DNA from: Natrinema thermotolerans DSM 11552
GTDB lineage: Archaea > Halobacteriota > Halobacteria > Halobacteriales > Natrialbaceae
DNA: 43,269 nucleotides
Direction: 5' to 3'
Assembly (NCBI GenBank): GCA_000337115.1
Contig: AOIR01000023.1
Span: forward strand, 18,795-62,063
Shown: positions 2,074-29,553 of the stretch, piece after piece
Position numbering within the stretch: position 1 is the first letter of the stretch
How the letters are laid out: every line of letters begins with the position of its first letter
Notes under the pieces: generated by a model
The model's database searches: none
What the model was told of the DNA's origin: nothing
What the model saw: the letters and a program-made list of their open reading frames with translations, nothing else
Program-made: the position numbers and the translations under genes

Positions 2074-2113
2074 CGCGAACCGCTATATAACAGCATTCCT
2101 AGACTTACGGCTC

Positions 2114-11805: not shown

Positions 11806-13050
11806 ATGGTTATGCTGCTAACTGTCGTCGGTATCGGTGTCGCGATATTCGTCGGGTTCAACATCGGAGGGTCATCAACGGGCGTGGCGTTCGGTCCGGC
11901 AGTGGGCTCGCGCTTGGTCCGAAAGACGACCGCTGGCGCGTTGTTCGTCGCCTTCGGCTTTATCGGTGCGTGGACCGTCGGTCGGAACGTCATCGCGACG
12001 ATGAGTAGCAGTATCGTGCCGGCAACCCAGTTCACGCCCGCTGCAAGCGTCGCCGTCCTGTTTTTCACGGGCGCGTCGTTGTTCGTGTCCAATCTCTATG
12101 GGGTTCCAGCTTCGACCTCGATGACGGCTGTCGGGGCGATCGTCGGATTGGGTCTCGCATCTGACACTCTCAATCGGGCGCTGATGTTCGTTATCGTCTC
12201 GGCGTGGATCGTCGCACCCCTGTCGTGTTTCCTCATCGGGGCCGTAGTCGGACGCTACATCTACCCGTATCTCGACCGTTACATCGCGTTTACGAAATTC
12301 GATCTCCATTTCGTCCAGCTTGACCGGTCGGGGACAGTTCCACGTCCGTATTTAAATAAGAACGCATCACCACAGGACATCGTCGGGTCACTCTCGGTGG
12401 TCGTCATCGCCTGTTATATGGCGTTCTCGGCGGGGGCGTCGAACGCGGCGAACGCAGTGGCTCCTCTCGTCGGTTCGGGGGGATCGCTCACTGTCAATCA
12501 GGGCGTCCTGCTTGCGGTGGCAGCCTTCGGGTTGGGCAGTTTTACTATCGCCCGTCGCACGCTGGAGACGGTCGGGGACGATATTACGGAACTACCGATC
12601 CTCGCATCACTGATCGTTTCCGTCGTCGGTGGGACAGTGATCACGATTCTCTCCTATTTCGGGATCCCCGCGAGTCTCGCGGTGAGTACGACATCGACGA
12701 TTATTGGGCTCGGATGGGGTCGAGCGAGTCGGGCGGCAACACTGGTGGAGTTGGCAATCCCAACACCCGAGCGGCCGGAAGTAGACGTCGCAACAGGGGC
12801 ATTGGTCACCTCCCGCGCCGAGGAGGCTCCTGCTGGCCCGACCATCGGGGACATCGCTCGCCAGGAGAAGCCGGCAGAGAAACCAGCGGACGTCCCAGAC
12901 GTACCGGATGTCGGCGCGGAAGGACCGGCTGATCTCGACGAGCGGAGCCTCTTCGATCCGAGCGCGGCCAAGCGCATCGTCACGATGTGGGTGTTGACGC
13001 CGGCACTGGCGATTGCCACCTCGTACCCGGTGTTCGTGTTCCTGCTGTGA
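11806..13050 (+). CDS. PiT-family inorganic phosphate permease
   Basis: The 414-residue membrane protein carries both inverted PiT signature blocks: FVGFNIGGSSTGVAFGPAVG near the N-terminus and AFSAGASNAANAVAPLVG in the second half. It has about ten to eleven membrane helices. A hydrophilic acidic/proline-rich loop (about residues 315-390) precedes a last membrane helix. PiT proteins import phosphate (or metal-phosphate) using Na+ or H+. No phoU-like gene lies beside it, so pairing with a regulator is not visible. The start at ATG 11806 follows a plausible TATA box; an ATG two codons later is possible. Confidence 0.88.
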   Translation: MVMLLTVVGIGVAIFVGFNIGGSSTGVAFGPAVGSRLVRKTTAGALFVAFGFIGAWTVGRNVIATMSSSIVPATQFTPAASVAVLFFTGASLFVSNLYGVPASTSMTAVGAIVGLGLASDTLNRALMFVIVSAWIVAPLSCFLIGAVVGRYIYPYLDRYIAFTKFDLHFVQLDRSGTVPRPYLNKNASPQDIVGSLSVVVIACYMAFSAGASNAANAVAPLVGSGGSLTVNQGVLLAVAAFGLGSFTIARRTLETVGDDITELPILASLIVSVVGGTVITILSYFGIPASLAVSTTSTIIGLGWGRASRAATLVELAIPTPERPEVDVATGALVTSRAEEAPAGPTIGDIARQEKPAEKPADVPDVPDVGAEGPADLDERSLFDPSAAKRIVTMWVLTPALAIATSYPVFVFLL

Positions 13051-13421
13051 GTGGCACTCACCGAGACACCGTCCTCCACATGCAACGGAGCCGGTTCCAG
13101 TGGGGGTGTCGAACGAGTAGGCACTCGGACTCTAGGTCAGTTCGTCGCTAGCCGCAACGGGGATTTCACCGGCACGGCCCAGTGCCTTCGACCGTCCCGT
13201 CGCTTGCGATGTCAGCTGCCGTTACGTTAGCCCCAGTTCGGTCCTCAGTCGAATCGGCTCTCCTTGAGGATACGTCCTACAGTCCTCGGAGACTGACCGG
13301 GCCGCCGACGTCATCGTCCCTAGTTGAATTGAGGCGCTGTATTCCCTCCCTGCTCGCACCTCCCGTTCGGTCGGCGCTCGCTGAGGAAGGAGGCTTAGCG
13401 CCTCAATTCAGCTAAAGTCGT
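13051..13421. other. Intergenic region between phosphate permease and CRISPR trailer
   Basis: No convincing gene. The only sizeable frame (13182-13415, +) has Ser/Pro/Arg-rich composition and no family features. The right end holds an inverted repeat described separately. Confidence 0.5.
13322..13413. repeat. 17-bp inverted repeat abutting the CRISPR trailer end
   Basis: AGTTGAATTGAGGCGCT at 13322-13338 pairs with AGCGCCTCAATTCAGCT at 13397-13413 (16 of 17 positions), enclosing 58 bases. The element ends 9 bases before the first CRISPR repeat. It could be a MITE-like or IS-end relic, or a hairpin that stops array transcription, since the array is read towards it. No transposase is attached. 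Confidence 0.7.
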
Positions 13422-13422
13422 C

Positions 13423-16400
13423 GCTTCGACCCCACAAGGGTCCGTCTGAAACGGACTTCCCGAACGATCTGGGCGAGGAGGTCCAAGTCGCTTCGACCCC
13501 ACAAGGGTTCGTCTGAAACCTTTGCACGGATATTTGTCAGGTGGCCGCCGCACTTGCTTCGACCCCACAAGGGTCCGTCTGAAACAAGCGTATAGGTATG
13601 GTTCTGCATCTCACCGGGCTTCGACCCCACAAGGGTCCGTCTGAAACGCTTCCCCAACGCGCCCGAGACGGCGACGCTTCGGTTGCTTCGACCCCACAAG
13701 GGTCCGTCTGAAACCGTGGTCTCGGTAAACTCGAGGCGGTAGGCGTCGGCGCTTCGACCCCACAAGGGTCCGTCTGAAACCGTCGACGACGCTTTTCGAC
13801 GGCGCGACCGACAGGAGCTTCGACCCCACAAGGGTCCGTCTGAAACTGTTCGCCGTCGCCGTCGGCGTAGTATTCGTCGATGCTTCGACCCCACAAGGGT
13901 CCGTCTGAAACTCACCGAGGCCTGGACGACGATCGTCGGCATGGTCGCTTCGACCCCACAAGGGTCCGTCTGAAACTAGCTGGTAATTGTGAAGCCGGTT
14001 CCCTGCATCGTGCTTCGACCCCACAAGGGTCCGTCTGAAACAGGCCGGCGCCGACCAGGCCGGCGGCTCCCCGCTCGAGCTTCGACCCCACAAGGGTCCG
14101 TCTGAAACCCCGCCGCCTCTCGCGCCAATCTGAGCGCTTCCTGCTTCGACCCCACAAGGGTCCGTCTGAAACCAGCATCACAATCTGGGAGATCGGAGCG
14201 AAACCCATGCTTCGACCCCACAAGGGTCCGTCTGAAACCTTGCAGCGGAGTTAGACACGGACGAAGTGAACGGGCTTCGACCCCACAAGGGTCCGTCTGA
14301 AACGCGGCCATTGCAGGCAGCTTGCTAAGCAGCAGGTCCGGCTTCGACCCCACAAGGGTCCGTCTGAAACTCGACCCAGTCGGGAGATCGCCAGAGAATT
14401 GGGGTTGCTTCGACCCCACAAGGGTCCGTCTGAAACTCGGTCACGACGACGACGGCGACTGGGGCGAGTGGAAGCTTCGACCCCACAAGGGTCCGTCTGA
14501 AACGTGAGCCCCGCATTCGGGACAGTAGGGCGGGAGCGGCTTCGACCCCACAAGGGTCCGTCTGAAACCCGGTAATCTCGACCCCAACGATCTCCGTGGT
14601 GCCGCTTCGACCCCACAAGGGTCCGTCTGAAACCGCTCGGTTCAGCGAACGACTCCGGATCAACCGGAGCTTCGACCCCACAAGGGTCCGTCTGAAACAA
14701 GGCGCACGTCGAGATCAGTAGCGTCCGAGCCAACAGCTTCGACCCCACAAGGGTCCGTCTGAAACTCCGTCGGATCACCTGAGCCGCCTCGTCTGGGGCA
14801 AGCTTCGACCCCACAAGGGTCCGTCTGAAACTCGAGGAAGACGCGGAGCAAGTCCGCGTCGGGCGGCTTCGACCCCACAAGGGTCCGTCTGAAACCGCAA
14901 CGATCGCCGCTCGAGTCGGATCGGTTCTGCTTCGACCCCACAAGGGTCCGTCTGAAACTCGCTCGAGGCCGCCGCCGGATCGGTCGCGCGCCCAGCTGGG
15001 CGCTTCGACCCCACAAGGGTCCGTCTGAAACACGCCGACATAATCTCGCCGCCGTCCGCGACGGTGCTTCGACCCCACAAGGGTCCGTCTGAAACCTTGC
15101 CGATCGCGTTCCACCAGCCCCCGCTACTGCCGCTTCGACCCCACAAGGGTCCGTCTGAAACGCGACGTCCGCGGGGTTCCCCATCAGTCAGTCTCCCGGC
15201 TTCGACCCCACAAGGGTCCGTCTGAAACTCCCGTCTCAGGAGATCGCGCGACGCACGAACTCTCGGCTTCGACCCCACAAGGGTCCGTCTGAAACCGGGG
15301 TCGCGCCGCGGGAGGCCCCATCCGAGAGATCGCTTCGACCCCACAAGGGTCCGTCTGAAACACTCGAGGTCGTGGTTGCGGGCGACGGCCGTTTCGCTTC
15401 GACCCCACAAGGGTCCGTCTGAAACACGTCGAAAACCTCGGGGGCGGCGTCTACGAGTTCCGCTTCGACCCCACAAGGGTCCGTCTGAAACTCGTCCCAG
15501 CGGTACTCGAGTGCGTCGTCGGCGTCGCTTCGACCCCACAAGGGTCCGTCTGAAACCCCGTGACCTGCGCGTCTCGATTCGCTGGTTCGACGCTTCGACC
15601 CCACAAGGGTCCGTCTGAAACCAGCCTCTTTCGCGACCTTCCACATTTCGTTAGCGCTTCGACCCCACAAGGGTCCGTCTGAAACAAGTCCGGCCGCCGG
15701 ACGAAATTCCCCGCGCCCTCGGCTTCGACCCCACAAGGGTCCGTCTGAAACGAGACTGTGCCGGAGCCGACGCTGGTCGCGACGTGGGCTTCGACCCCAC
15801 AAGGGTCCGTCTGAAACGAGTGTATAACATCGCGTCGGAAAAGATCCGCACAGCTTCGACCCCACAAGGGTCCGTCTGAAACCCGAGGACCTCGTTGACC
15901 CGATCACGGCGGCGACGGCTTCGACCCCACAAGGGTCCGTCTGAAACGGGATCGGGTTCCCGCACGTCTCGCGTTCCGAGCCGCTTCGACCCCACAAGGG
16001 TCCGTCTGAAACTCGATCGACGAGTACCGGAAGGTGTCGCTGCTGGGGGCTTCGACCCCACAAGGGTCCGTCTGAAACACCTCGTGAAAGAGAAACTGTC
16101 CGTCGAAGCCGACGCTTCGACCCCACAAGGGTCCGTCTGAAACCATGTCGGTCGAGTCGTGTTCGGGCCGATCCCAACTGCTTCGACCCCACAAGGGTCC
16201 GTCTGAAACCCACGCTGCTGAGGCGGTAGTCGGTAACATCGACGGCTTCGACCCCACAAGGGTCCGTCTGAAACCGGCGATGCGCTAAAGCGGTACGTCC
16301 GGTACAAGCTTCGACCCCACAAGGGTCCGTCTGAAACGATACGTGGCCCACCAGGCATGGCGGTCCGCTTCCTCTGCTTCGACCCCACAAGGGTCCGTCT

Positions 16401-19400
16401 GAAACTCGCTGTCGTCGACGAGCCGTGAGACTTCGGTCAGGCTTCGACCCCACAAGGGTCCGTCTGAAACCAGCAGCGGGTTGACGGGGCCGGTCAGTCC
16501 GGTGATGCTTCGACCCCACAAGGGTCCGTCTGAAACCACTGGTCGGTCTTTTCGTGCGTGTCGATCGAGACGCTTCGACCCCACAAGGGTCCGTCTGAAA
16601 CGAACGTAACCGGGTCCTCGGGCGACTCGAGGATCGTGCTTCGACCCCACAAGGGTCCGTCTGAAACCGGAGGTACTACCTATGACACGACGCACCCGAC
16701 GAGCTTCGACCCCACAAGGGTCCGTCTGAAACTCGAGCAGGGCGACGGCGAGATCGTCTCGATCGCGCTTCGACCCCACAAGGGTCCGTCTGAAACAAGT
16801 GCCATACCCGAGAGACATTCTTCGGAGACTAGCTTCGACCCCACAAGGGTCCGTCTGAAACCAGCCGACCTCATACCCCACAAATCGGGCGATATTGAGC
16901 TTCGACCCCACAAGGGTCCGTCTGAAACGCGCCGGATCGATGGTCACGACACTCAGACGATTGCTTCGACCCCACAAGGGTCCGTCTGAAACGAACTGGT
17001 CATCTGGCACGACACGGCCACGGTCGCTTCGACCCCACAAGGGTCCGTCTGAAACTTTGGTAGGCCGGTCGGCAGGACGGATGTAGATCACGCTTCGACC
17101 CCACAAGGGTCCGTCTGAAACACAGTGCGCTGACCGACACGACGTACCTCGTCACGCTTCGACCCCACAAGGGTCCGTCTGAAACGTTATCGTGTTTCCA
17201 CGTCAAGAAGGGGGCGGGACGCTTCGACCCCACAAGGGTCCGTCTGAAACGCGGCTTCTCGGCGGCGACCGGCCTCGTCTACTCGCTTCGACCCCACAAG
17301 GGTCCGTCTGAAACCCGTCGAAGAATGGGCAACCGAGTCAGGGATTCGTGCTTCGACCCCACAAGGGTCCGTCTGAAACCGCCGTATTTTTCTTTGGCCT
17401 GGAGGAGTTTTCGCTTCGACCCCACAAGGGTCCGTCTGAAACGATCGGTAGGGTCGTGATTGAGGGCTGCTACGCTAATGCTTCGACCCCACAAGGGTCC
17501 GTCTGAAACTACTCTCTCGCGTTCGAGGGAGTCCCGATCGCGGAGGCTTCGACCCCACAAGGGTCCGTCTGAAACGCCGTCACCCGTTAAACCAGCAGCT
17601 TGCATCGAGTGCTTCGACCCCACAAGGGTCCGTCTGAAACCGATTCCCGACCGACGAGCCCCTGCCTCGAGGCAAGCTTCGACCCCACAAGGGTCCGTCT
17701 GAAACTACCAGTCCGAACCCATCACGGTCGACGTAACTCAGGCTTCGACCCCACAAGGGTCCGTCTGAAACCGGATCGGGCGCGGCTTGCGCGCGGATGC
17801 GATCGCGCTTCGACCCCACAAGGGTCCGTCTGAAACTGACGGATTCTCGAGGGATCGGCAGACTATATAAAGCTTCGACCCCACAAGGGTCCGTCTGAAA
17901 CGAATACGGAAACCGTGCATACATCGCGACGACTGCTTCGACCCCACAAGGGTCCGTCTGAAACCCGGCGTCGACGGTGACCTCGAGGGCCATGTCTGAG
18001 CTTCGACCCCACAAGGGTCCGTCTGAAACCGAACCATCGGGGCGTTCCGCAAACGCACGTTCCTCGGCTTCGACCCCACAAGGGTCCGTCTGAAACGTGA
18101 TGCGTATTGGACGGCCACTGACGCTGCGTTCACGCTTCGACCCCACAAGGGTCCGTCTGAAACGGTTTAGCTGACAGCAACGCCGCCGGTGACGTTGCTT
18201 CGACCCCACAAGGGTCCGTCTGAAACCGTCAGCGTCACGTCGACAGCACCGTCCTCTACCTCGCTTCGACCCCACAAGGGTCCGTCTGAAACGCCTCGTC
18301 GAGGGCGGGTTCCGGGCCCGAGATCGAGCTTCGACCCCACAAGGGTCCGTCTGAAACCGGGAATCCGCCGAACGTTCCGGTTTACTTGATTCGCTTCGAC
18401 CCCACAAGGGTCCGTCTGAAACCCGAAACAGGCTCGTCGAGTGGCGTTGTCTCCCGGTGGCTTCGACCCCACAAGGGTCCGTCTGAAACGTCCGCGTCGC
18501 CAGCGTCGACGACGTCGCCGTTGTCGCTTCGACCCCACAAGGGTCCGTCTGAAACTTCGACGTCCAGGTCCACTTCAACAACGAGTCGTGGCTTCGACCC
18601 CACAAGGGTCCGTCTGAAACTGTCCCACTTCGAGCCGCCGCGCGACCACTGTTTGCTTCGACCCCACAAGGGTCCGTCTGAAACGCGTGCCGTCGGCGAG
18701 GTCACAAACGAGTCCACTGAGCTTCGACCCCACAAGGGTCCGTCTGAAACGGCTGAACCGGCGCTCAACGAGCGGACTGACTTCGTCGCTTCGACCCCAC
18801 AAGGGTCCGTCTGAAACCTGATGAAATGGTCTATAACCACCGTGAGCTTGTTGAGCTTCGACCCCACAAGGGTCCGTCTGAAACACGGCGGCTACGTCTA
18901 CCCGCTGGCTCCGTTTCTCGCTTCGACCCCACAAGGGTCCGTCTGAAACCTGGGTGTTTGCTCGGCTGAGTACCATGAGCCGGTGGCTTCGACCCCACAA
19001 GGGTCCGTCTGAAACCGGGCTCTCGATCGACTGGTGAGTATCACTGGTTTGCTTCGACCCCACAAGGGTCCGTCTGAAACGGGAGACCAAACCGCCAGCC
19101 CTTGGGCGATCGTGGATGCTTCGACCCCACAAGGGTCCGTCTGAAACGTTTAAGACAAACTGGAGTTGGGAGAGCATTGACTGGGCTTCGACCCCACAAG
19201 GGTCCGTCTGAAACGTGGCCGAAACTCTCCGAGAGGTTGCCGACGACTTGGCTTCGACCCCACAAGGGTCCGTCTGAAACCTCTGCAACGGGCGATTTTG
19301 CCCGTGTGCGGTCGCCGCTTCGACCCCACAAGGGTCCGTCTGAAACTCACCGTCTCGGACGCGCTGGCCGGGGTAGAGGAGGCTTCGACCCCACAAGGGT

Positions 19401-20002
19401 CCGTCTGAAACGGGGATGAAGGCGATTCAGGAGGTAGACAAGATCCTCGCTTCGACCCCACAAGGGTCCGTCTGAAACCGGTCCCTCCCGCAGTTGCGTG
19501 TCCTCGCCGAAATTGCTTCGACCCCACAAGGGTCCGTCTGAAACGTGCGGCCTTGATCGCCTCGAGGGCATCTTCGCGGAGGCTTCGACCCCACAAGGGT
19601 CCGTCTGAAACCAGCAGCGTCCGCCGTTCCTCCATCAGCCGGGAGCGGCTTCGACCCCACAAGGGTCCGTCTGAAACAGGCGACTTTCATTTGCGAGACC
19701 TTGGATGCCCAAGCTTCGACCCCACAAGGGTCCGTCTGAAACTGACTCTGATACCGACAATCTGTCGGTGTTCGTGCTTCGACCCCACAAGGGTCCGTCT
19801 GAAACCCGTCTTCGTTCAGCCGCTTGGCCTCCACAATCTCGCTTCGACCCCACAAGGGTCCGTCTGAAACGCGTGATCCGGCGGTGGGCGACCGAGTGCG
19901 AGCCCTGGCTTCGACCCCACAAGGGTCCGTCTGAAACTATCTATCTGATATCATTCTGGTGTCGGCTCCTCCGCTTCGACCCCACAAGGGTCCGTCTGAA
20001 AC
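13423..20002 (-). CRISPR. Type I-B CRISPR array, 101 repeats and 100 spacers
   Basis: A 30-bp repeat runs with almost no variation: on the plus strand it starts GCTTCGACCCCAC and ends GTCCGTCTGAAAC. The first copy is at 13423-13452 and the last at 19973-20002. Listing each repeat start by hand gives 101 repeats and 100 spacers, mean unit 65.5 bases. Spacers are mostly 33-37 nt, with extremes of 32 (13586-13617) and 43 (14959-15001). On the minus strand the repeat reads GTTTCAGACGG...GTCGAAGC, the orientation known for haloarchaeal I-B repeats, whose last 8 bases become the crRNA 5' handle. Transcription is therefore inferred right to left, newest spacers being next to cas2. Only the second repeat from the trailer end (13490-13519) was noticed to carry a base change. 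Open frames across the array are artefacts of the repeat. Confidence 0.98.
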
Positions 20003-20114
20003 CATGGTCAATTAGACCACGTAAACAGCTCTATTGGCCGTTCACACTTCATCGTTTCCGTCGACCCTCGATAACCTCTGAACCCCCCGGGGTCGATGGA
20101 ACAACCAGGGATGG
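20003..20114 (-). promoter_or_regulatory. CRISPR leader
   Basis: The 112 bases between the leader-end repeat and the cas2 stop form the leader on the minus strand. A small inverted repeat (TGGTC 20005-20009, GACCA 20015-20019) sits two bases from the first repeat and could mark the integration edge. No strong TATA box is evident. The leader is short, so its upstream part may lie inside cas2. Confidence 0.75.
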
Positions 20115-20378
20115 TTAGAGGAACTGATCGTCGGCGGCAGGATCGTCACCGAAGACGGTTCTCTCAACCATCTTCTCAGAGGAGACGCGGTAGATGATCG
20201 TCGATTCACCGGGTTTGAGCATTTCGTCGACGCCGGATCGGATCTTTTCGAGGTCGCCCTCAGTCACGTCCCCCTCGAGTACAGAGTTTTGAACGTGTGT
20301 GAGATATCTCCGAAGGAACTTCAGCATCTTGTGAGTACGGTCGGCTTCCATGTCGTAGACCACGACGACATAGACCAT
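20115..20378 (-). CDS. cas2: CRISPR-associated endonuclease Cas2
   Basis: The 87-residue protein has the Cas2 ferredoxin-like fold signature: first strand MVYVVVVYDM with the conserved Asp9, then RTHKMLKFLRRYLTHVQNSV, and a later strand STIIYRV. Cas2 dimers bridge two Cas1 dimers in the spacer-integration complex. The ATG at 20378 follows the cas1 stop by two bases, which decides against the longer frame from 20390. It is the last gene of the operon, ending 112 bases from the array. Confidence 0.95.
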   Translation of the reverse strand: MVYVVVVYDMEADRTHKMLKFLRRYLTHVQNSVLEGDVTEGDLEKIRSGVDEMLKPGESTIIYRVSSEKMVERTVFGDDPAADDQFL

Positions 20379-20380
20379 AC

Positions 20381-21373
20381 TCACCACCACCGTCGGAACG
20401 GGACATACTCCTCGCCGGTCAGGAGGTGTTTTTTCAGTTTGTACGCTTCAACACGGAGGAGATACTGGTAGCTCACCTTCTTTCCTAAATCTGGGTGATC
20501 GATCGTCTCGTCGAGAGTTTCCTCGTATGCTTTCGAGTAGGTTTTTCGGCCACCTTCGTTCAGGAGACAGGAATTCATGTCGGCTTCAAAGTCGTCGGTG
20601 GTTAGCTGGCCGCGGTTGACGAGTCTGAAGATGACTCGATCGGCGAGCAGCGGCTTGAACAGGTCGGCGATGTCCAGGGCCAGTGAGTATCGTCGTTCAC
20701 CGGGTTCATGGAGGTAACTGACCGTCGGATCCAGTGCAGTCGCACGGATCGCCGAGACGACGTTCGCATAGACCAGCGAGTTGCCGAAGGAGATCAGGCT
20801 GTTGACCTCGTTATTCGGAGGGTTGTACTGCCTGCCACCGAAGACAAATCCCTCGGGAAGGATCTCGTCGAAAGTCGAATAGTACGCTTTCCTGGCGCGC
20901 GCTTCAACGCCCATCGTCTCGTCGATCGTTCCCATCCCGTTGAGCGACGCCCGTGCATCCTCCAGTTCCTCCAGCACATGCTCGAAGTCGTATCCACGCC
21001 CGTCGTAGTAGGTGACGTTCGAGCGCATGTTGTGGATGCTGCCGTCGACGAACGCCTTCGCAAGTTCAAGGCGGTGGCTCGGGTCGTCGTAGGCCCGGAC
21101 CTGGTCGACGATCGTCTGGCCGGAGGTCTGGCCCCGCTTTGGCATGATTGAGCCGGCATAGTGGTCGTGCCAGCCGAAGACGTGGACTGCGACGCCTTCC
21201 TGATTGAGGAAGGAGACGAAACGAGTGTTGTACTCGATCTGTCCGTGGAGGAAGATCGCCTCGGCGTTCTCGACTGGGAGGTACTTCTTCTCGCCGTCGT
21301 CGGTGACGACACGCACCGTATCGTCCTGGCGTTCGATCCGTCCGTCGGAAAACACGTGGTAGTTGTCGTTCAT
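20381..21373 (-). CDS. cas1: CRISPR-associated integrase Cas1
   Basis: The 330-residue Cas1 has an N-terminal beta domain (EAIFLHGQIEYNTRFVSFL) and the all-alpha catalytic domain. The metal-binding residues appear intact: Glu157 (GVEARARKAYY), His222 (SYLHEPG) and Asp237 with Asp234 (LALDIADLFKP). It joins new spacers into the leader-proximal repeat together with Cas2. The start at 21373 lies two bases after the cas4 stop; upstream residues in the open frame are unlike Cas1. Its C-terminus ends RRWW just before cas2. Confidence 0.97.
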   Translation of the reverse strand: MNDNYHVFSDGRIERQDDTVRVVTDDGEKKYLPVENAEAIFLHGQIEYNTRFVSFLNQEGVAVHVFGWHDHYAGSIMPKRGQTSGQTIVDQVRAYDDPSHRLELAKAFVDGSIHNMRSNVTYYDGRGYDFEHVLEELEDARASLNGMGTIDETMGVEARARKAYYSTFDEILPEGFVFGGRQYNPPNNEVNSLISFGNSLVYANVVSAIRATALDPTVSYLHEPGERRYSLALDIADLFKPLLADRVIFRLVNRGQLTTDDFEADMNSCLLNEGGRKTYSKAYEETLDETIDHPDLGKKVSYQYLLRVEAYKLKKHLLTGEEYVPFRRWW

Positions 21374-21375
21374 GG

Positions 21376-21936
21376 TCAACAGCTCCAGCAGAAATCGTGA
21401 TAGGCACACGAGTCACAGACCGGCTTCTCCTCGGCCGGTGGCGGCGATTCTGCGGTGACGACCTCACGGATCCCACGGATAGCCGATTCGACTTCGGCGC
21501 TGGTTTCCGGGGTCAGTTCGATCGTCTCGCGTCGTTTCTCTGTCGGATGTGCCAGGACACCAGTCTTCTCAACGCCGGTGACCCGATCGAGATACCAGAG
21601 GTAGAACAGCAGCTGCAGCCGCGCTGGTTCGGTCATCGACGACGAGGGTTTGACCTCCAGGATCTCGCCGCTGTCCAGTACGTCGATCGCGATGATCCCA
21701 TCGACGCGCACGTCTCGGCGCTTGTCCGAGTAAGCCGCGTCGTCAACGTCGCTGCCGCGAACGATCGATGGCGTGTCGCGGTCGATCTCTACGTCACGGC
21801 TGAGGAACCAGAGTTCTCGCTCACAGACGACGTAGTACTGGAACATAACGCCGGTCAGCCGGAAGGGGAGTTCGGCGGTCTCGTCTCTAGCAGCGTCGAG
21901 AAACCGGTCGACAGGGTCAGTCGGTGAATCGGTCAT
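21376..21936 (-). CDS. cas4: CRISPR-associated exonuclease Cas4
   Basis: This 186-residue RecB-like nuclease has the Cas4 four-cysteine iron-sulfur cluster: Cys38 (VVCERELWF) and a C-terminal CDSCAYHDFCWSC (C174, C177, C183, with C186 extra). The nuclease core shows Asp79 and the E94-V95-K96 motif in ILEVKPSSS. Cas4 trims prespacers and selects the PAM end during adaptation. The ATG overlaps the cas3 stop by four bases (ATGA), indicating translational coupling in the operon. Confidence 0.93.
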   Translation of the reverse strand: MTDSPTDPVDRFLDAARDETAELPFRLTGVMFQYYVVCERELWFLSRDVEIDRDTPSIVRGSDVDDAAYSDKRRDVRVDGIIAIDVLDSGEILEVKPSSSMTEPARLQLLFYLWYLDRVTGVEKTGVLAHPTEKRRETIELTPETSAEVESAIRGIREVVTAESPPPAEEKPVCDSCAYHDFCWSC

Positions 21937-24512
21937 AGGAACCGGTCGTCGACGCTCGGCTCATCCACAGCGAGCCCCTTCGTTGTGTCGAAGTACGAGG
22001 TCCCCTGTGGCCGCCTGAGTACACAGAGGTCAGTATCACCGAGCGGTTCAAGGTGTCGAGCTGTCTCGGCCTCGGTCGAGTCTTGGCTGTAGATCGGGAG
22101 CGAAACAGTGATCTCCTTGGCTTCGTCGCGCCGGTCGTCGAACGCGTCGTAGTCGAATTCTCTCACGGCCAATTCCATCGCATCGACCAAATCACGGTCG
22201 GCGTCCGTTCGGCAGACGACCACGTCAACGCTCTCTCGTTGGCCGATCAGCGAGAGTGTGCCGAGCTTCGCTCCCTTCGCCTCATCGACCCACTCGACGT
22301 ACTGTGGGGATCCCGGATTGCGACCGGCGACGAGACCGTAGTAGTGCTGAACGGCCTCGCGGGTCATCGTCCGTTCGGCGACGGTTCCGTCGTTCGCACC
22401 GATCGCGTCGAGTGTTTTGGAAGTCAGTGAAATCGTACTCACTCCCTCAGAGTCGTAGACGGCCTGTGCTGGGGTCTTGGTCGTGCCCGCTGGTGGAGCA
22501 AGCCACCAGAGCGTCACCGCTCCGAGATCACTCTCGAACGACCGGTTACACCGACCCGCCGCCTGAACGGCGCTATCGATCGGTGCGATGTCGCGGTACA
22601 CTCGATCGAAGCTGATGTCTACCCCAGCCTCGATGAGCTGCGTCGACACCGCCACGATCGGAACGTCGTACTCGGTGAGTTGCTTCGTGGCTTCGATGAG
22701 CGCAAGCCGGTCCCGCGGACGAAGGCGAGTTGAGAGGTGGACGAGTGCTCGTTCGTTCGAACCGAGCGTCGCCTCGACCCGTTTGACGAGAGCGTCCACG
22801 TCAGCTCCGTCATCGTCGAGTTCCAACTCGAGACACCGACCAACGTCGACGACCGCTTCGCGTTCCTCGATCGAATCCGTGAGTTCGGTGGCGCTGTCGA
22901 TGGTGTTACAGATCGCGAGTACCGACTCGGTCTCGCCGGTCTCGTTGAGGATCGTCCGGCCAGCGGTCTCGTAGTCTACTGTTGCGTCAGTGTCGTCGAA
23001 CGCGAGTACAGAATCATGAATGTCGTACTCGACTCGTTCGAAGTGATCGAAGTATCTATCCACGTCGTTGACCAGTTCGAACGCGTCGTCGAACAGGGCT
23101 TGAGACGCCGCATCCTCGTCGTTTGTCGCCGGCTGGGTCGCAGTCATAGCGATGATCGTCGCGTTGTACTCTTCTGTGAGGATCGTCGTGATTCGGCGGA
23201 CGAGCTTCCACCACTCCATTGGCAATGCCTGGGGCTCGTCCAGCACGATCACGGAATCGTACAGCGCCGGCAGTTTCATCGACTGGGTGTTACTCGGGCC
23301 AACGAGGCTCTCGAAGAGTTGGACGAACGTCGTGAGCGTCATCCCGGAGCGCCAGCTCTCGGCGACCATCTCCGCGAGTCGGGCATGCTCGTCGGGATCG
23401 TCATCTGGATCACCGAGTTTCGTCACCGTCTCGGCCAGATGGTGGTGGATCGTCAACAGGTCGTCTCGAGCGTCGGTATCGAACACGTCCGTGAGTTCGT
23501 CGGCGACCTGATCGATGACGGAGGTAAAAGGCAATGCGTAGACGACCCGTTCACTCTCGTTTCGGAGTGCGAGAGCAGCATTGAGACCGGTCAGCGTCTT
23601 GCCCATCCCGGTTGGTAGTGTCAGCGTTGCGATCGACGTATCCGAGTCGCGGAATTGCTCGACACCGTCGAGTACGTCGTCTCTCGCCTCGTCACGGAGC
23701 GTATCGAGAGCGTCTTCCTGACTGTCTCCGTCGGTATCTCCTCCTAGGTCGGCGATGTACTCCGAGAGGGTACGAGTATCCGGCTCGGATGCGTCGATAT
23801 CACCGTCCTCGACACCGGCAGCCACCGTTTTGTCGGCGAGAATCAGCCCACTCCAAAGCTGGAGGAGCAGTTCGTAGAACTCGTCGGAAGGTGCCGAGCG
23901 GTCGCTGCCGAAACCGAACATGGAGACGTGATCGTAGACGGTATCGAACAGGGAGTCGTCCGCATCGTTGATCTTCTCGGCGAACTCCTCCCACGACCCG
24001 TTACCGTCGGTAGCGTCAGAGACGAACGATCGCGCGAACGTCCGGCGATGGTCATTGACATTCTCGACCTGTTCGATCACGACTCGTTGGCGCTCGTTGC
24101 TTGCCTCGCTCTTGTTGTCGAAGCGCGAAACTCCTTCGACGTATTCCTCCGTATCGGGGAGACGACCGTGGTGTTTCGCGAGAGCGACGAAGGCCGCGAG
24201 ACAGTCCTCGCTGTCGTAGCCCAACCGATCGAGGACGTAGTACCCGAGATAGGCCCCGAACAGGGAGTGGTTCGTCCGCTTGCTTGTGTCTCGCTCATCA
24301 ACCACGTACTCCTGGAACCACGTCGTCGCCTTCCCGAAGTCGTGACATCGTGCCACTGTCGCCACCATCTCGGTGAGCGGGTCGTCGCCGATCGTCGTTG
24401 CGTCCGTGGAGACGACGGACTCGGCCCGCTTGGCCACCTCGTTTAGGTGATCGAGGAGCAATGTCGCATCGTCACCGTCCTCGGCGGGATGAGAGATCGG
24501 CGTATCCACCAT
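21933..24512 (-). CDS. cas3: CRISPR-associated nuclease/helicase Cas3
   Basis: The 859-residue Cas3 has an N-terminal HD nuclease domain (His57-Asp58 in ARCHDFGKA, then the ALAKHHGRLP His pair) followed by an SF2 helicase. Visible helicase motifs are TLPTGMGKT with Lys305, the DEPQ box at 425-428 (VIVLDEPQALP), MTATQP, and the C-terminal block around QAAGRCNRS. Cas3 is recruited by Cascade to an R-loop and degrades the non-target strand. HD and helicase are fused in one chain, as usual in I-B. The start codon overlaps the cas5 stop by one base (TGATG). Confidence 0.96.
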   Translation of the reverse strand: MVDTPISHPAEDGDDATLLLDHLNEVAKRAESVVSTDATTIGDDPLTEMVATVARCHDFGKATTWFQEYVVDERDTSKRTNHSLFGAYLGYYVLDRLGYDSEDCLAAFVALAKHHGRLPDTEEYVEGVSRFDNKSEASNERQRVVIEQVENVNDHRRTFARSFVSDATDGNGSWEEFAEKINDADDSLFDTVYDHVSMFGFGSDRSAPSDEFYELLLQLWSGLILADKTVAAGVEDGDIDASEPDTRTLSEYIADLGGDTDGDSQEDALDTLRDEARDDVLDGVEQFRDSDTSIATLTLPTGMGKTLTGLNAALALRNESERVVYALPFTSVIDQVADELTDVFDTDARDDLLTIHHHLAETVTKLGDPDDDPDEHARLAEMVAESWRSGMTLTTFVQLFESLVGPSNTQSMKLPALYDSVIVLDEPQALPMEWWKLVRRITTILTEEYNATIIAMTATQPATNDEDAASQALFDDAFELVNDVDRYFDHFERVEYDIHDSVLAFDDTDATVDYETAGRTILNETGETESVLAICNTIDSATELTDSIEEREAVVDVGRCLELELDDDGADVDALVKRVEATLGSNERALVHLSTRLRPRDRLALIEATKQLTEYDVPIVAVSTQLIEAGVDISFDRVYRDIAPIDSAVQAAGRCNRSFESDLGAVTLWWLAPPAGTTKTPAQAVYDSEGVSTISLTSKTLDAIGANDGTVAERTMTREAVQHYYGLVAGRNPGSPQYVEWVDEAKGAKLGTLSLIGQRESVDVVVCRTDADRDLVDAMELAVREFDYDAFDDRRDEAKEITVSLPIYSQDSTEAETARHLEPLGDTDLCVLRRPQGTSYFDTTKGLAVDEPSVDDRFL

Positions 24513-25300
24513 CAGGTGAACACCACGGTCCGATCATCCACTGAGTACGTTGCCACGTCAGTGAACGTGAGCGAGCCACCGTCCGGGTTGTAGGCGTAGG
24601 AGACGAACGCGCTCGTCGTCCGGCCACCGTCGTCACGTTCCATGAACGCGGGCGTCTGCTCGATCTGGTAGCGTGTCTCCGGATCGGGAACGATCGAGTC
24701 GACGGCCTCGGGGACGGTCGAGTCGATAGCTACCGTGTCACCGCCGGGTCCCTGCTCGATCGGGAACTCACCGTGGTAATCGACTGTCGCCAAGTACTCA
24801 GAGAGACCGAGGCTCGGAACGTAGTACGATTCACCCGATTCGAGCAGCGAGCGGAGTTGGTCGTACCGCTCGTCGTCATCGAGCCACACGTCGATCCGAT
24901 AGGCAGGATCGACGAGGACCTCGTAGTTGTGCTGCTGTCGGGGCTTGGACGGATCGGGGAGCTTGATGGAAAGTTTTCCGCGAGGGTTTAGCGACGCCAT
25001 GTGTTCGTCGGCGGTCGAGAGCGTGTTCATCGGTAGCTTCATCGTCCGCAGTTCGCTCGTTGGTTCGATTGCAACCAGCGACTCACCCGGGGCGAAAAGA
25101 TCGTAGTAGCCGTCACGTTCGATGCCCAGCATCGCCGCGATCAAGCCGGCGACAGTGGTCCGCGGGATGACGCGGTACGTCTGTTTCACGATGTTACCCT
25201 CGATACGCCGGAAGTGTCCCCAGGGTCCGCTGACCGTGAACGACAGGCACGTCTCAGCGCTATCGGGGAGCCCCGATCCGGCCGGTGCGTACTCGGTCAC
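24512..25300 (-). CDS. cas5: Cascade subunit Cas5b
   Basis: The 262-residue protein shows the Cas5 N-terminal block LSFTVSGPWGHFRRIEG followed by YRVIPRTTVAGLIAAMLGI, typical of Cas5 of subtype I-B (Cas5h). It is a RAMP protein that holds the crRNA 5' handle and caps Cascade next to Cas8b. It lies between cas7 and cas3, three bases from the cas7 stop and one base overlapping cas3. Nothing looks truncated. Confidence 0.93.
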   Translation of the reverse strand: MTEYAPAGSGLPDSAETCLSFTVSGPWGHFRRIEGNIVKQTYRVIPRTTVAGLIAAMLGIERDGYYDLFAPGESLVAIEPTSELRTMKLPMNTLSTADEHMASLNPRGKLSIKLPDPSKPRQQHNYEVLVDPAYRIDVWLDDDERYDQLRSLLESGESYYVPSLGLSEYLATVDYHGEFPIEQGPGGDTVAIDSTVPEAVDSIVPDPETRYQIEQTPAFMERDDGGRTTSAFVSYAYNPDGGSLTFTDVATYSVDDRTVVFT

Positions 25301-25303
25301 AGG

Positions 25304-26356
25304 TCACTCCTCCGGCGCGGTCGCTTTCGCATCTTCGTACACATCGATCACCCGGACGGATTCACTACCGACTGCTGATTCGAGGGCATCGTAGAGGAAC
25401 TCGTGGCCGCCCGTCTCACCGTCGACGGAGACTTCGAGGACATCGCTGGCGACGACGTGGACGGTGTCGATTCGATCGGACGCACCGTCGAGTCGCTTGA
25501 GCAGTGCCGACACGTCGACACAGATGTCGCGGACATTTCGGAGTTCCTCGACGGGTTCGGATTCTGCACTGTCGAGTTCGAGGTCCTGATCGAGCCCGCC
25601 GAGATGGAAGCTCTCGTCGGCGTACTCGACTCTGAGGTAGAGCCGGGGCTCCTGTCCGACCTTGCTCCGGCTGATCGTCTGATTCTTCAGCGCACGCCAG
25701 CACAGCGTGTCCAGCCGCCGCACGTCCCGATCCGATAGGAGCGTGTCTTCGGCCCCGTGTTCGTCGACGAGTCCGTGGAACCCGATGAAGGCATACTGGA
25801 TCCGGTGGTCGTCGAGGTCGAACCCGCCCTGTGCCTTATCGTCGCCGGTCGCGATGACGCTGGTGAGGCTGTTGTACTCCTCGTTCTCCATGACTCGGTG
25901 GAGCGACTTGCCGGGTGAGAACTGAACGGGACCAGTGAAGTGATCCGGAAGGTGGTCGACTTTCTCGTCATCCATGTCGACGCTCATAGTCGCGCCGAAG
26001 TAGCGGATGTCGGCGCTGTTTTCGAGGAACTGACTGAAGACGGCGTTCTCGATGTCATCCTCGTCGACATCGTCGAGGTCGATGTCCTTGAGCCGGGCCT
26101 CGAGGAGATCCTCGCGAGTTGCCTGATCGCCGTCTTCCTTGACGTTGCGGATGTAGACGCCGTGGCCGTCGTCCTGTAGCTGATCCCGCAGGTAGCGCTT
26201 GAGGCGAACGTCGGTGACGATTGCTTGATCCGTATGGGGGTCGATCCGCGGTCGGTTCGCACCGCTGAGGGGGTTGCCGTTGGGGTTCGCGTCGACTGCG
26301 TCGTACGCGAAGACGATCTCGGATCTGTTCGAGACAGTGGGGTAGTGTTCACTCAT
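25304..26356 (-). CDS. cas7: Cascade backbone subunit Cas7b (Csh2)
   Basis: The 350-residue RAMP protein matches Csh2/Cas7 of type I-B. It has the N-terminal VFAYDAVDANPNGNPLSG block, then DVRLKRYLRDQL and SADIRYFGATMSVDM with TGPVQFSPGKSLH. Multiple copies line the spacer part of the crRNA. Its ATG overlaps the cas8b end by eight bases, so the two are coupled. The length is usual for haloarchaeal Cas7. Confidence 0.95.
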   Translation of the reverse strand: MSEHYPTVSNRSEIVFAYDAVDANPNGNPLSGANRPRIDPHTDQAIVTDVRLKRYLRDQLQDDGHGVYIRNVKEDGDQATREDLLEARLKDIDLDDVDEDDIENAVFSQFLENSADIRYFGATMSVDMDDEKVDHLPDHFTGPVQFSPGKSLHRVMENEEYNSLTSVIATGDDKAQGGFDLDDHRIQYAFIGFHGLVDEHGAEDTLLSDRDVRRLDTLCWRALKNQTISRSKVGQEPRLYLRVEYADESFHLGGLDQDLELDSAESEPVEELRNVRDICVDVSALLKRLDGASDRIDTVHVVASDVLEVSVDGETGGHEFLYDALESAVGSESVRVIDVYEDAKATAPEE

Positions 26357-28469
26357 TGGTATCGGGGGATTCGTCGGTGGTTTCGTCGTCGGTCGTTGCG
26401 TCGTCCTCGTTCGTCGATCGGTCGTTCATACCGTAGGTCAGGCCGAGGGCGTAGTAGAAGCGCAGATCGTCGGTGCTGATTTCCCAGCCCGATGGATCGT
26501 TTCCGGCCATGGTTTCGACGATGGCGTTCGTGACTTCCTTATACATCGTCGAGTTGATGTTCGATCCTTTCTTGGCCATTTCCCGAGAGTAAACGACGTC
26601 TTTGTCGATTACCTCCTGGGTGATACGCTTGATCTTGGTTTTGGTCATCGACTTGATCGGGTACTGGTCGATGACGGTCGTCGACAGGTCGTGGTAGCCC
26701 TGCTGGTAGGTGCCGACTTGGCCGACGAGCGTACCGAGCAGGAACGCACCCTTCCGTTCGGGGTCGTCCAGACCGTCCGTCTGTTCGATGAACGATTCGA
26801 GCTTCTCGGTGCGATCAAGGGCGGCCGTGCCGCCGTCGGTTCGCGCGTGTTCTGGTTCCATGGTGTCGTAATCGGGACCGTCGATCAGTGGCGATTCGGT
26901 ATCGCCGGTGTCCGTCGTCACGAGATCGGCGTTTTCGAGCGCGCACAACTGTGCGAACTGGGAGGCGATCAGGAGTTCCGGCACGTCGTCGCCGTCCCGA
27001 TCGAGCAGTCGCTCGACGTAGGCGCTGACGAGCTGGGTCCGTGGTACGGGGTCGCCGGCAAGTATCGAGACGTGGACATCGATTCGCTCGTCGTCGACCG
27101 TCGCATCGGTGTCCTCGTCGGTGAAGGGGAACGTCCGGTAAAGATAGGCTCCCGATCCGACCATCTCTCGGAAATCCTGATACGTGGTGAGCGACCACTC
27201 CTCGTGGGAGGGCATCGGTGGTGTTCGATCTCTGTTCCTGTCGTCGTTCTCGTCGAAGACCCAACTTCCCGTGATCTGTTCGTGTCTCTCCCCGACTTCG
27301 GTGGGGTAGTGGATCCGGCCGTTCAGCGTCTCGCCGTATACGTCGAAGCGAGACATCTGGTGTTTCATGACCGCTGCGACGTAAAATCGCAGTCGACCCT
27401 CGGAATTCGCTTCGTGATCACCCAACTCGTCGTAGAGCGTCTGGACCGGACCCATGTCGTCGGCCTGTGTGACGCTGTGAAGCGCCGCGTACAGGTTGTA
27501 GGTCTCCGCAGGTGTCGGCCGACCGAGGAAGTACGGGAGGTAATACACATCGGCGTTAAACGTCCGGTAGGAACAGGCGTCGACGAACTCCTCGGCATTC
27601 ATCAGCGTGACTGCCCCGTCTTCGGAGATCGGATGACTCCGCCACGCTTCGTCCGGATCTAATCCCGGGAACTTCTCCATCTGCTTGCCGAGGAAGTAGT
27701 TGAGAGGGTCCTCCGCAGTGCCGACGGTTCGGGTGCGCTCACCGCTGATCAGATCGGTGGCTAGACCAGCGGAGTTCGTCGCCTGCCCCTTCGAGACCAG
27801 TTTCGAGAGCTTTCGTGTACGCATCGCCTCGTTGAACACTGGTACGTCGCCGGGCCACTCGTAGTCCGCACTCGCTTCTCGTCGGACCTGTACGGTTAGG
27901 AGTGCCGTAGTCGAACCGCCGAGTTCGGCCTTGACTGCGGACCGGATTCGATCGAGGTTCGATTCCTCTTCGCCGACGGTTGCCAGCCCGCGAATGACCT
28001 CTCCATCCGGGTGTTCGTCGGCAACATCCTGGACGACATCGTCAGTCGCCCACTTGGTCAGGCGCTCGCAGGCGTAGCGGGCCAACTTCTCAGGATCGCT
28101 GTTGCGTCCCGAGCGGTGAGTAACGCTGTGATCAATCCCGCGCGCGGCGTTGTACTTACAGTGGGCGACTTTCTGGATGAGATCGGCGGCGTACTGGGTA
28201 ATCTTGACGGGCTCATCTGCGTCGAGTGCGGGTCGGTCACCGGAGAGATCGACCCGGACGACAATCAGGCTCTCTTCCGCTCCGATCAGGTCGTTGGCCT
28301 GGTCGGGTGTCAGATACGCTGCGTAGTCGCCACCACCGGCCGTCGCCAGCGTGTACAGGCGACCGTAGAGATGCTGGATATCCCGGAGCGACGAGATCGG
28401 TCGCTCCGGGAGTTCGTCTTCCAGTCGCTCGGGTGGGTACTCGTCGTAGAACTCGTCAGGATCAAGCAT
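26349..28469 (-). CDS. cas8b: Cascade large subunit Cas8b (Csh1)
   Basis: This 706-residue acidic protein lies where haloarchaeal Cas8b is always found, between cas6 and cas7, and has its usual size of about 700 residues. Recognisable pieces include PISSLRDIQHLYGRLYTLA at the N-terminus and a C-terminal helical region FLLGTLVGQVGTYQQGYHDL plus TKTKIKRITQEVIDKDVVYS. Cas8b recognises the PAM and, with internal translation in some systems, may also supply a small subunit. I chose ATG 28469 because it overlaps cas6 by eight bases; the extended frame to 28553 is antisense-like and Ser/Arg-rich. The identity is based on context as well as sequence, since Cas8 proteins diverge fast. Confidence 0.93.
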   Translation of the reverse strand: MLDPDEFYDEYPPERLEDELPERPISSLRDIQHLYGRLYTLATAGGGDYAAYLTPDQANDLIGAEESLIVVRVDLSGDRPALDADEPVKITQYAADLIQKVAHCKYNAARGIDHSVTHRSGRNSDPEKLARYACERLTKWATDDVVQDVADEHPDGEVIRGLATVGEEESNLDRIRSAVKAELGGSTTALLTVQVRREASADYEWPGDVPVFNEAMRTRKLSKLVSKGQATNSAGLATDLISGERTRTVGTAEDPLNYFLGKQMEKFPGLDPDEAWRSHPISEDGAVTLMNAEEFVDACSYRTFNADVYYLPYFLGRPTPAETYNLYAALHSVTQADDMGPVQTLYDELGDHEANSEGRLRFYVAAVMKHQMSRFDVYGETLNGRIHYPTEVGERHEQITGSWVFDENDDRNRDRTPPMPSHEEWSLTTYQDFREMVGSGAYLYRTFPFTDEDTDATVDDERIDVHVSILAGDPVPRTQLVSAYVERLLDRDGDDVPELLIASQFAQLCALENADLVTTDTGDTESPLIDGPDYDTMEPEHARTDGGTAALDRTEKLESFIEQTDGLDDPERKGAFLLGTLVGQVGTYQQGYHDLSTTVIDQYPIKSMTKTKIKRITQEVIDKDVVYSREMAKKGSNINSTMYKEVTNAIVETMAGNDPSGWEISTDDLRFYYALGLTYGMNDRSTNEDDATTDDETTDESPDTNE

Positions 28470-29268
28470 CGACGCGTTCCCTCTGGCCCGATCGCTGGTT
28501 CTCTTTCTCGGTGATGTTGACGAACCCGAATCCGAGCGAATTCCGCTCGCCAATACCGGTGTCGAGCGCGAGATTCAGATGGCGTCGGTGGTGGTCGTCG
28601 CGGACGGTATAGTCGAACCGCCATTTGCTCAACACCCACGTCTCGCGTTGACCCTGTGTCACGGTCACCGGAATCGAGAACGTCTTGATCAGGTCTGCGC
28701 CGTCGAACAGATCGTCGCTAGTTTCCGACGGCCCGGGCAAGTAGTCGGGACAAAACAGGTCGTGTTTCTTATCGAGATTGTTCTCGACCTGATTGCGGAA
28801 TGGCTCCACCGTATGTTGGGGTCGCCAGAATTCCGCCTCATCGTGGTCGGTGTCGATGCCGTACTCCTCGAAGCGCCACGGCGGGATCCGAACTAACACG
28901 CCCGTCCCTGTCTCGATCGTGCCCGACGTACCCGGTTCGCCTACGTCAGTCGCCAGTCCGTTGACCGAATCGACATGGAAGGGCATCTCGCCGATATTTA
29001 ACTCTCGGTTGTCTTTGAGATCGGCCGCAACGTTGGCGAGCAGTTCTTCATGTGGCGACGCTACGAGTAACGTCCGCTCGTCGCCCTCTCGCATATCTCT
29101 CGGCGGAAACGGATTACTGTACGTGAACCCCTTCGGACGATCCTTGTCGTGTATTTCGTCGTATTCGGTCCCATCAAGCGCGTTCCAGATCCGGCCTCGA
29201 AGCTTGTGATGGTACGTATTATCGTAGGCCGTATCCGCGCGCGCTCGCAGGTGTGCTATTACTCGCAT
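28462..29268 (-). CDS. cas6: crRNA-processing endoribonuclease Cas6
   Basis: The 268-residue protein is a Cas6 RAMP with the C-terminal glycine-rich loop GIGERNSLGFGFVNI that marks the family. The N-terminal ferredoxin fold begins MRVIAHLRARADTAYDN and contains a His pair (residues 20-21) that may supply the catalytic His. Cas6 cuts within each repeat, leaving the 8-base 5' handle. As first gene of the operon it is preceded by an AT-rich promoter region at 29269-29553. The eight-base overlap with cas8b indicates coupling. Confidence 0.94.
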   Translation of the reverse strand: MRVIAHLRARADTAYDNTYHHKLRGRIWNALDGTEYDEIHDKDRPKGFTYSNPFPPRDMREGDERTLLVASPHEELLANVAADLKDNRELNIGEMPFHVDSVNGLATDVGEPGTSGTIETGTGVLVRIPPWRFEEYGIDTDHDEAEFWRPQHTVEPFRNQVENNLDKKHDLFCPDYLPGPSETSDDLFDGADLIKTFSIPVTVTQGQRETWVLSKWRFDYTVRDDHHRRHLNLALDTGIGERNSLGFGFVNITEKENQRSGQRERVDA

Positions 29269-29553
29269 TCGTGCATCTCCCTATTCCGTGTCATTATGTC
29301 ATTGTGGTACACTAACCAATCGTGTCATTATAAATGTGGTTGTACTAGTGTGGAATTATAATTCTATTAGATCTATGTGAAACTATCTTTGACCTGCAGC
29401 AACATCCGGGATATTATTACGCCATCTCTCCCCGTATTCATAGACAAACGAGTTCCCCTGTCTGCGTTTTCTGTCAAATAGTTATTCGATAGTTTCTCTC
29501 TCCTCTCCGAAGGTGTAGCGGTTGGTTTGGCTCCTTCGCCTTAGCCCACGGTG
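29269..29553 (-). promoter_or_regulatory. cas operon promoter region with a direct repeat
   Basis: This AT-rich stretch upstream of cas6 contains the direct repeat CGTGTCATTAT at 29287-29297 and 29321-29331. The second copy overlaps a TATA-like TTTATAAT (minus strand, 29327-29334) about 60 bases before the cas6 ATG. A third TGTCATT lies at 29298-29304. The copies, 34 bases apart, are candidates for a regulator site. No gene is seen here, and an IS6 copy begins at 29554. Confidence 0.5.

Follow-up and report, generated by a model that had tools for sequence, protein, structure and literature searches.

Haloarchaeal type I-B CRISPR-Cas systems, of the kind found in Haloarcula hispanica and Haloferax, have an eight-gene cas set adjoining a leader and an array, 30-bp repeats that match an Rfam CRISPR family, and TTC beside their protospacers. 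The locus studied here shares all these features. It lies in a stretch of 43,269 nucleotides from Natrinema thermotolerans DSM 11552, referred to below as the window. Its machinery shows no visible difference from that of the known systems, whereas only two of the 12 other arrays compared are larger than its own, which ends without a degenerate unit. A second point of comparison is the natural "collapse and repopulate" of the Legionella pneumophila array, as told in a review (PMC8047081). According to section 7 of this review, a trailer repeat without polymorphism exposes the whole array to loss; the same section poses as open questions whether degenerate terminal repeats protect against collapse and whether collapsed arrays are refilled in nature. 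The Legionella case resembles the present one in that the leader and terminal junction are conserved and the spacers completely renewed. It differs in being of type I-F, while here the system is an archaeal type I-B one, the renewal is deduced from two genomes and not from experiments, and the terminal repeat is canonical. We propose, with somewhat better than even confidence, that the 100-spacer array of this locus is young and not ancient: its old trailer end would have been lost, and the array would later have collapsed by recombination between repeats and then regrown.

The eight cas genes are all open frames on the minus strand, to the right of the array, and all score above the curated NCBIfam cut-offs (Table 1). 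They comprise the I-B signature set cas8b/Csh1, cas7/Csh2 and cas5b (TIGR02591, TIGR02590 and TIGR02592), a cas3 carrying its HD and helicase domains in a single open frame (TIGR01596 and TIGR01587, at the domain level, by profile match), the adaptation genes cas1, cas2 and cas4, and the processing gene cas6. The assignment to type I-B, already made in the original prediction, is borne out by the three signature models. The machinery is that of an ordinary type I-B CRISPR-Cas system, and the locus is complete and probably active. Sequence comparison places the host in Natrinema, in the sense of the GTDB genus, with N. thermotolerans A29 very close to it. Other genomes of this GTDB genus that carry the locus include those of Natrinema gari, Natrinema hispanicum and Haloterrigena sp. 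H1, and alignments with these three cross the leader up to the first repeat.

Table 1. Features of the CRISPR-Cas locus in the window (positions counted from the first letter of the window).
Feature	Position	Strand	Evidence
Hairpin element similar to an IS200/IS605-type element end, separated from the terminal repeat by 8 bases	13321..13414		Fold, plasmid matches
CRISPR array, 101 repeats of 30 bp and 100 unique spacers	13423..20002	- (crRNA strand; transcription right to left)	Script count, Rfam CRISPR-DR24, genome repeat count
Terminal (trailer) repeat, exact consensus, no degenerate unit beyond	13423..13452	-	Repeat comparison
Sole variant repeat (1 mismatch), no. 100 of 101 from the leader, second from the trailer end	13490..13519	-	Script
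Leader, cas2 to first repeat, 112 bp	20003..20114	-	111 bases aligned with N. thermotolerans A29: 0 substitutions, 1 indel
cas2	20115..20390	-	TIGR01573, 39.3 bits (cut-off 24.5)
cas1b	20381..21409	-	TIGR03641, 425.8 bits (cut-off 304.1)
cas4	21376..21936	-	TIGR00372, 68.4 bits (cut-off 65)
cas3 (HD nuclease and helicase)	21933..24512	-	TIGR01587, 112.7 bits (cut-off 102.45); TIGR01596, 84.2 bits (cut-off 43.45)
cas5b	24512..25300	-	TIGR02592, 243.1 bits (cut-off 97)
cas7 (Csh2)	25304..26356	-	TIGR02590, 369.6 bits (cut-off 171.55)
cas8b (Csh1)	26349..28553	-	TIGR02591, 212.3 bits (cut-off 104.05)
cas6	28462..29268	-	TIGR01877, 87.7 bits (cut-off 58.65)

A script counted 101 copies of GCTTCGACCCCACAAGGGTCCGTCTGAAAC (as read on the plus strand) in the array, 100 of them exact and one with a single mismatch. 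Allowing as many as 10 mismatches revealed no extra copy on either strand of the whole window. At up to 3 mismatches the genome (3,895,275 bases in 68 contigs) holds 101 copies, all accounted for by this array, and thus no second array with this repeat in its 3.895 Mb; a single Cas1 match was found in it. The 100 spacers are all distinct and measure 32-43 nt, with 34, 26 and 20 of them being 35, 36 and 37 nt long, respectively. As the leader is at the right end, the most recent acquisition is expected to be S001 (19938-19972) and the earliest S100 (13453-13489). The locus thus has what is expected of a type I-B array: a leader followed by identical repeats that enclose unique spacers. On this anatomy the original prediction was exact: it had given 100 spacers between the same two boundaries, repeats nearly uniform as far as the trailer end and one leader at the right end, where cas2 indeed adjoins, and the repeat count, which it had left to be checked by software, is also the one returned by Rfam (101 CRISPR-DR24 matches, minus strand). 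Repeat units collapsed or expanded during assembly could in principle distort such a picture, as the genome is a 68-contig draft and exact 30-bp repeats can mislead assemblers. The 100 distinct spacers of normal length, the position of the array inside a single 74.4-kb contig and the same organization in strain A29, whose record is described as a complete sequence, make this explanation very improbable.

We then placed the size of the array among those of its relatives. In the 13 arrays with both ends seen, the numbers of repeats are 131 (congener G066), about 118 (N. gari, locus L054, approximate as this array holds N gaps), 101 (the window), 85, 69, 60, 59 (A29), 54, 50, 46, 37, 27 and 13. 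The 11 comparison arrays of this set, the window and A29 being counted apart, come from Cas1-related loci and exclude L056, where the array runs to the contig end, and L059, L062 and L065, where no repeat was found at up to 8 mismatches; L097-L099 are second copies of L054-L056 and were dropped before counting. The review (PMC8047081) mentions arrays that exceed 100 spacers, that of Haliangium having 587. An array of 100 spacers is therefore large but unexceptional, and its description as lying at the large end for haloarchaea holds insofar as it ranks third of 13, with the reservation that two congeners have bigger ones.

The comparison that bears most directly on the age of the array is with N. 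thermotolerans A29, whose 987-kb replicon (CP031304) carries the same locus in the same position, with the same repeat. The two strains show 124 differences over 9,153 aligned bases from cas2 to cas6 (98.65% identity) and 28 over 3,388 in the 3.4-kb flank on the trailer side (99.17%). The aligned leader differs by its one indel only, BLAST identity over 20003-24512 is 99.4%, and the last 128 bp left of the array are identical in both strains, as is the junction with the terminal repeat. In contrast, the A29 array has 59 repeats instead of 101, all of them exact, and none of its 58 spacers is among the 100 of the window, the longest match listed at E <= 0.01 being 17 nt. Two close relatives thus have a conserved leader and trailer junction around wholly different spacers. 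More broadly, no spacer of at least 26 nt is shared between the window and any compared array. One A29 spacer is present twice in succession, and we therefore see in it a trace of rearrangement between repeats. A29 was the sole other strain with this trailer junction among the search matches, the genome collections searched having one genome per species.

This pair of strains is compatible with a change in either array, and with collapse as well as with exchange with a third strain. Indeed, the main rival to collapse and regrowth is that the array of one strain was swapped with that of another by homologous recombination in the flanks, i.e., in the leader/cas region and in the trailer flank. 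The sequences free of substitutions on both sides, 128 bp on the left and the leader on the right, could have served as crossover sites, and the density of SNPs along the locus is patchy. Half of the trailer-flank differences (14 of 28) fall within the intergenic segment 13057-13294, 128-366 bp left of the array, so that the 382 bp at 13041-13422 carry as many differences as the 3 kb before them, 14 each; dense stretches are also seen in cas8b. The intergenic cluster could be a recombination edge, but it could equally be a stretch that simply evolves faster. Moreover, none of the arrays compared has a spacer in common that would point to it as the donor, and a swap alone would explain neither the canonical terminal repeat nor the uniform repeats in both strains. 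We therefore consider a replacement of this kind unlikely, although a serious candidate.

The trailer ends tell the two strains apart from their relatives. The trailer end is degenerate in 11 out of 11 comparison arrays and canonical in the window and in A29, where the terminal repeat is an exact consensus without any protective polymorphism and nothing repeat-like lies beyond it (best candidate, 8 mismatches of 15). The last repeat is changed in L054, L055, L057, L058, L061, L063, L064 and L096. A half-repeat remnant follows an exact last repeat in L100, this remnant being the sole ground for calling that array degenerate, and L060 and L101 show both a changed repeat and a half-repeat. These half-repeats, located 34-38 nt past the last repeat, were sought after the sequences had been inspected and were then tested on all 13 arrays. 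The congeners compared, whose terminal repeats are degenerate, likewise have no spacers in common with one another, and full turnover is therefore not shown to need a canonical terminal repeat. The controls with degenerate terminal repeats were all pairs from different species.

The sequence beyond the array differs as well. N. gari and the congener G066 have a common trailer sequence (89% over 47 nt and 88% over 166 nt) that was not seen in the window or A29; if this trailer is ancestral, the present lineage lost it before the window and A29 split. The first 242 of the 475 bases of the G066 trailer match nowhere in this genome at E <= 0.001, and its only two matches (46 and 28 nt) both lie in part 243-397, a portion that G066 also has at three other places. 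In the window, the array is bordered by a hairpin: the segment 13318-13422 folds at -51.0 kcal/mol, with an outer stem of 19 bp. A search with 13041-13422 matched 64 plasmid records and, among the 20 matches listed, A29 aligned throughout and the 19 others only over about 281-380 of the query, which corresponds to the hairpin. We tentatively assign it to the end of an IS200/IS605-like element. In Halomicrobium katesii, an insertion (L061 11293-13203) parts cas2 from the leader and its 54-repeat array; 81 bp related to the hairpin are found at the end of this insertion, in which tnpA/tnpB-like frames were read by eye.

The repeats themselves provide an estimate of age. Taken together, those of the window and A29 amount to 4,800 nt and contain one substitution. 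At the rate of the trailer flank, 19.8 substitutions would be expected if the repeats dated from the split of the strains and 9.9 if their mean age were half of that (P of at most one, 5e-8 and 5e-4); the cas rate gives 32.5 and 16.3. With 1 difference, the 331 bp upstream of cas6 are the slowest flank and predict 7.3 and 3.6 (P 0.006, and 0.12 at half age), and the leader, free of substitutions, yields no clock estimate. Young repeats are favoured by these clocks, short of proof as the slowest flank leaves room, and their youth may be mimicked by purifying selection or gene conversion acting on the repeats.

These data also bear on the opposite reading, put forward in the original prediction, in which the uniform repeats denote a maintained array with a long infection history. 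The array would then be an old archive in which selection or gene conversion preserves the uniformity of the repeats, the loss of spacers being confined to A29. The 101 near-identical repeats and the intact adaptation genes agree with this, two congeners also hold more than 100 units, and the slowest flank clock is compatible with it. However, a strain with 98.65% identical cas genes and no substitution in the leader has not one spacer in common; the A29 repeats are likewise all identical and end with a canonical copy; the relatives do gather repeat variants and degenerate terminal units, which makes the canonical end the exception; and one substitution falls below the prediction of both long flanks (about 10 to 33). 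The old archive is in our view improbable.

The collapse and regrowth that we favour can be described in three steps. First, a common ancestor of this strain and A29 would have lost the old trailer with its degenerate terminal repeat; the IS200/IS605-like hairpin would have replaced them, leaving a canonical repeat at the end. All repeats being then identical, recombination between them could have deleted the whole spacer content, with only the leader and one repeat remaining. This loss, later than that of the trailer, would have affected at least one of the two strains, or their common ancestor. Finally, Cas1, Cas2 and Cas4 would have refilled the array at the leader, and the repeats would be nearly identical right to the trailer because each new one is copied from the leader-proximal repeat. 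A broader reading, which we put forward with some reserve, is that of a natural reset of archaeal CRISPR memory: the loss of the degenerate repeat and the arrival of the hairpin trailer would have removed the safeguard against loss of the entire array, and the lineage would go through cycles of collapse and rapid regrowth, up to 100 spacers within about 1% of strain divergence.

The pair formed by the window and A29 bears on both questions posed in section 7 of the review (PMC8047081). We found no recognizable description of this pair in the open-access literature on haloarchaeal CRISPR, spacer loss, N. thermotolerans, or array size, turnover and collapse. It also calls for caution, since a long uniform array need not be an old record: here, 100 spacers and uniform repeats go along with a complete spacer difference between strains whose cas genes are about 1.35% apart. 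If collapse and regrowth did take place, repeat uniformity signals youth and not maintenance.

To identify the targets of the array, we searched the 100 spacers against 50,697 phage records. S006 perfectly matches Natrinema versiforme icosahedral virus 1 and S062 perfectly matches SNJ1, while S038 matches Haloferax phage LSV-48N and S021 Halorubrum virus CGphi46 (30 nt); the match of S070 to Microbacterium phage Kozie (E 0.6) is probably due to chance. On plasmids, matches were found for S006 in pNVE19, for S070 in an 86-kb plasmid of N. thermotolerans A29 and for S063 in an 8.3-kb Halobaculum plasmid. Spacer matches, own array included, occur in at least 18 of 125 genomes of the family (E <= 0.001) and at least 8 of 392 of the order (E <= 0.0001), both counts being lower bounds as at most two candidates were scored per genome. 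As a decoy, the 100 reversed spacers gave no match at E <= 0.001 on 27 target loci and one 16-nt match on L104, L105, L109 and L110, a weak control as it was run only on loci chosen beforehand for matching.

In the loci examined, nine spacers have full-length targets with up to 4 mismatches: S006, S021, S028, S038, S050, S062, S063, S070 and S096. These targets include haloviruses and plasmids as well as provirus-like genes. TTC lies 5' of at least one target for five of them (S006, S028, S062, S063 and S096), including both perfect matches. The other 5' neighbours are TTT (S021), ATT (S050), TGC (S070) and CTC, the last one seen with S038 and with a further target of S063; the count leaves out full-spacer matches with 5 or more mismatches (S009, S023, S032, S052, S065, and S038 in L044). 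A figure legend in PMC9458426 names 5'-TTC-3' as the PAM for haloarchaeal I-B systems, and the array thus has protospacers in mobile elements next to this motif. The PAM that the original prediction had hoped to obtain from spacer matches could therefore be recovered, in contrast to the clustering of recent spacers on a single virus group that it had suggested, as S006 is the only one of the 20 leader-proximal spacers with a full-length match at up to 4 mismatches. The genus Yingchengvirus is the target of both S006 and S062, which lie 56 positions from each other in the array.

The genes targeted by S006, S062 and S021 encode replication proteins or a primase, that of S028 a minor tail or tail-tube protein and those of S038 integrases; S096 targets a polymerase-clamp-like gene and S063 a virus-found family of unknown function, whereas the match of S050, in an alcohol dehydrogenase gene, is probably fortuitous. 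Over its last 29 nt, S021 (18621-18654) perfectly matches CGphi46 (L015), but there are mismatches at 4 of its first 5 bases and TTT lies next to the target, a pattern that might be expected of a seed/PAM escape variant. There is no convincing self-target among the spacers: against the own genome, the 25 matches beyond the array were all partial (at most 37.4 bits; 40 of 161 first-look candidates scored). The A29 spacers gave two matches to this genome, at most 41 bits (40 of 185 candidates scored), and the A29 array gave none to phages at E <= 0.1. In viral contigs, no relative of the CGphi46 primase was found, nor any exact piece of S001 (22 nt) or S003 (21 nt). The SNJ1 RepA led to two contigs, L109, where no spacer match exceeds 19 nt, and L110, where RepA is identical to that of SNJ1 and the S062 target is perfect.

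Some further observations concern the surroundings of the cas operon. A 1-nt indel separates the window (26364) from A29 near the cas8b/cas7 junction, and A29 has at this site one annotated cas7b gene of 3,165 nt (L068 29501-32665), perhaps a fusion or a sequencing error. An IS6-family transposase lies at 29582-30238, about 310 bp upstream of cas6, and window positions 2112-2799 contain related DNA with about 79% identity to the IS6 region of A29. The similarity of the leader-cas block to its counterparts in other Natrinema extends to about 29350-29400, and the block is on a 3.47-Mb contig in G066 and on a 987-kb plasmid record in A29; the cassette may therefore have moved. In a search for an empty site in G065, no right flank was found within the two 10-kb stretches, where left-flank homology ends at 13317 and 13276. 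Degenerate repeats were also seen upstream of cas6. In the aligned position, the window has at most a remnant (29354-29383, minus strand, 16 mismatches, not above background), and G066 has a weaker copy (L096 1363-1392, 11 mismatches). In N. gari (L054), two such repeats (1959-1988 and 2018-2047, with 11 and 7 mismatches) lie 59 nt apart, and this pair resembles the mini-CRISPR of a creA/CreTA-type guide.
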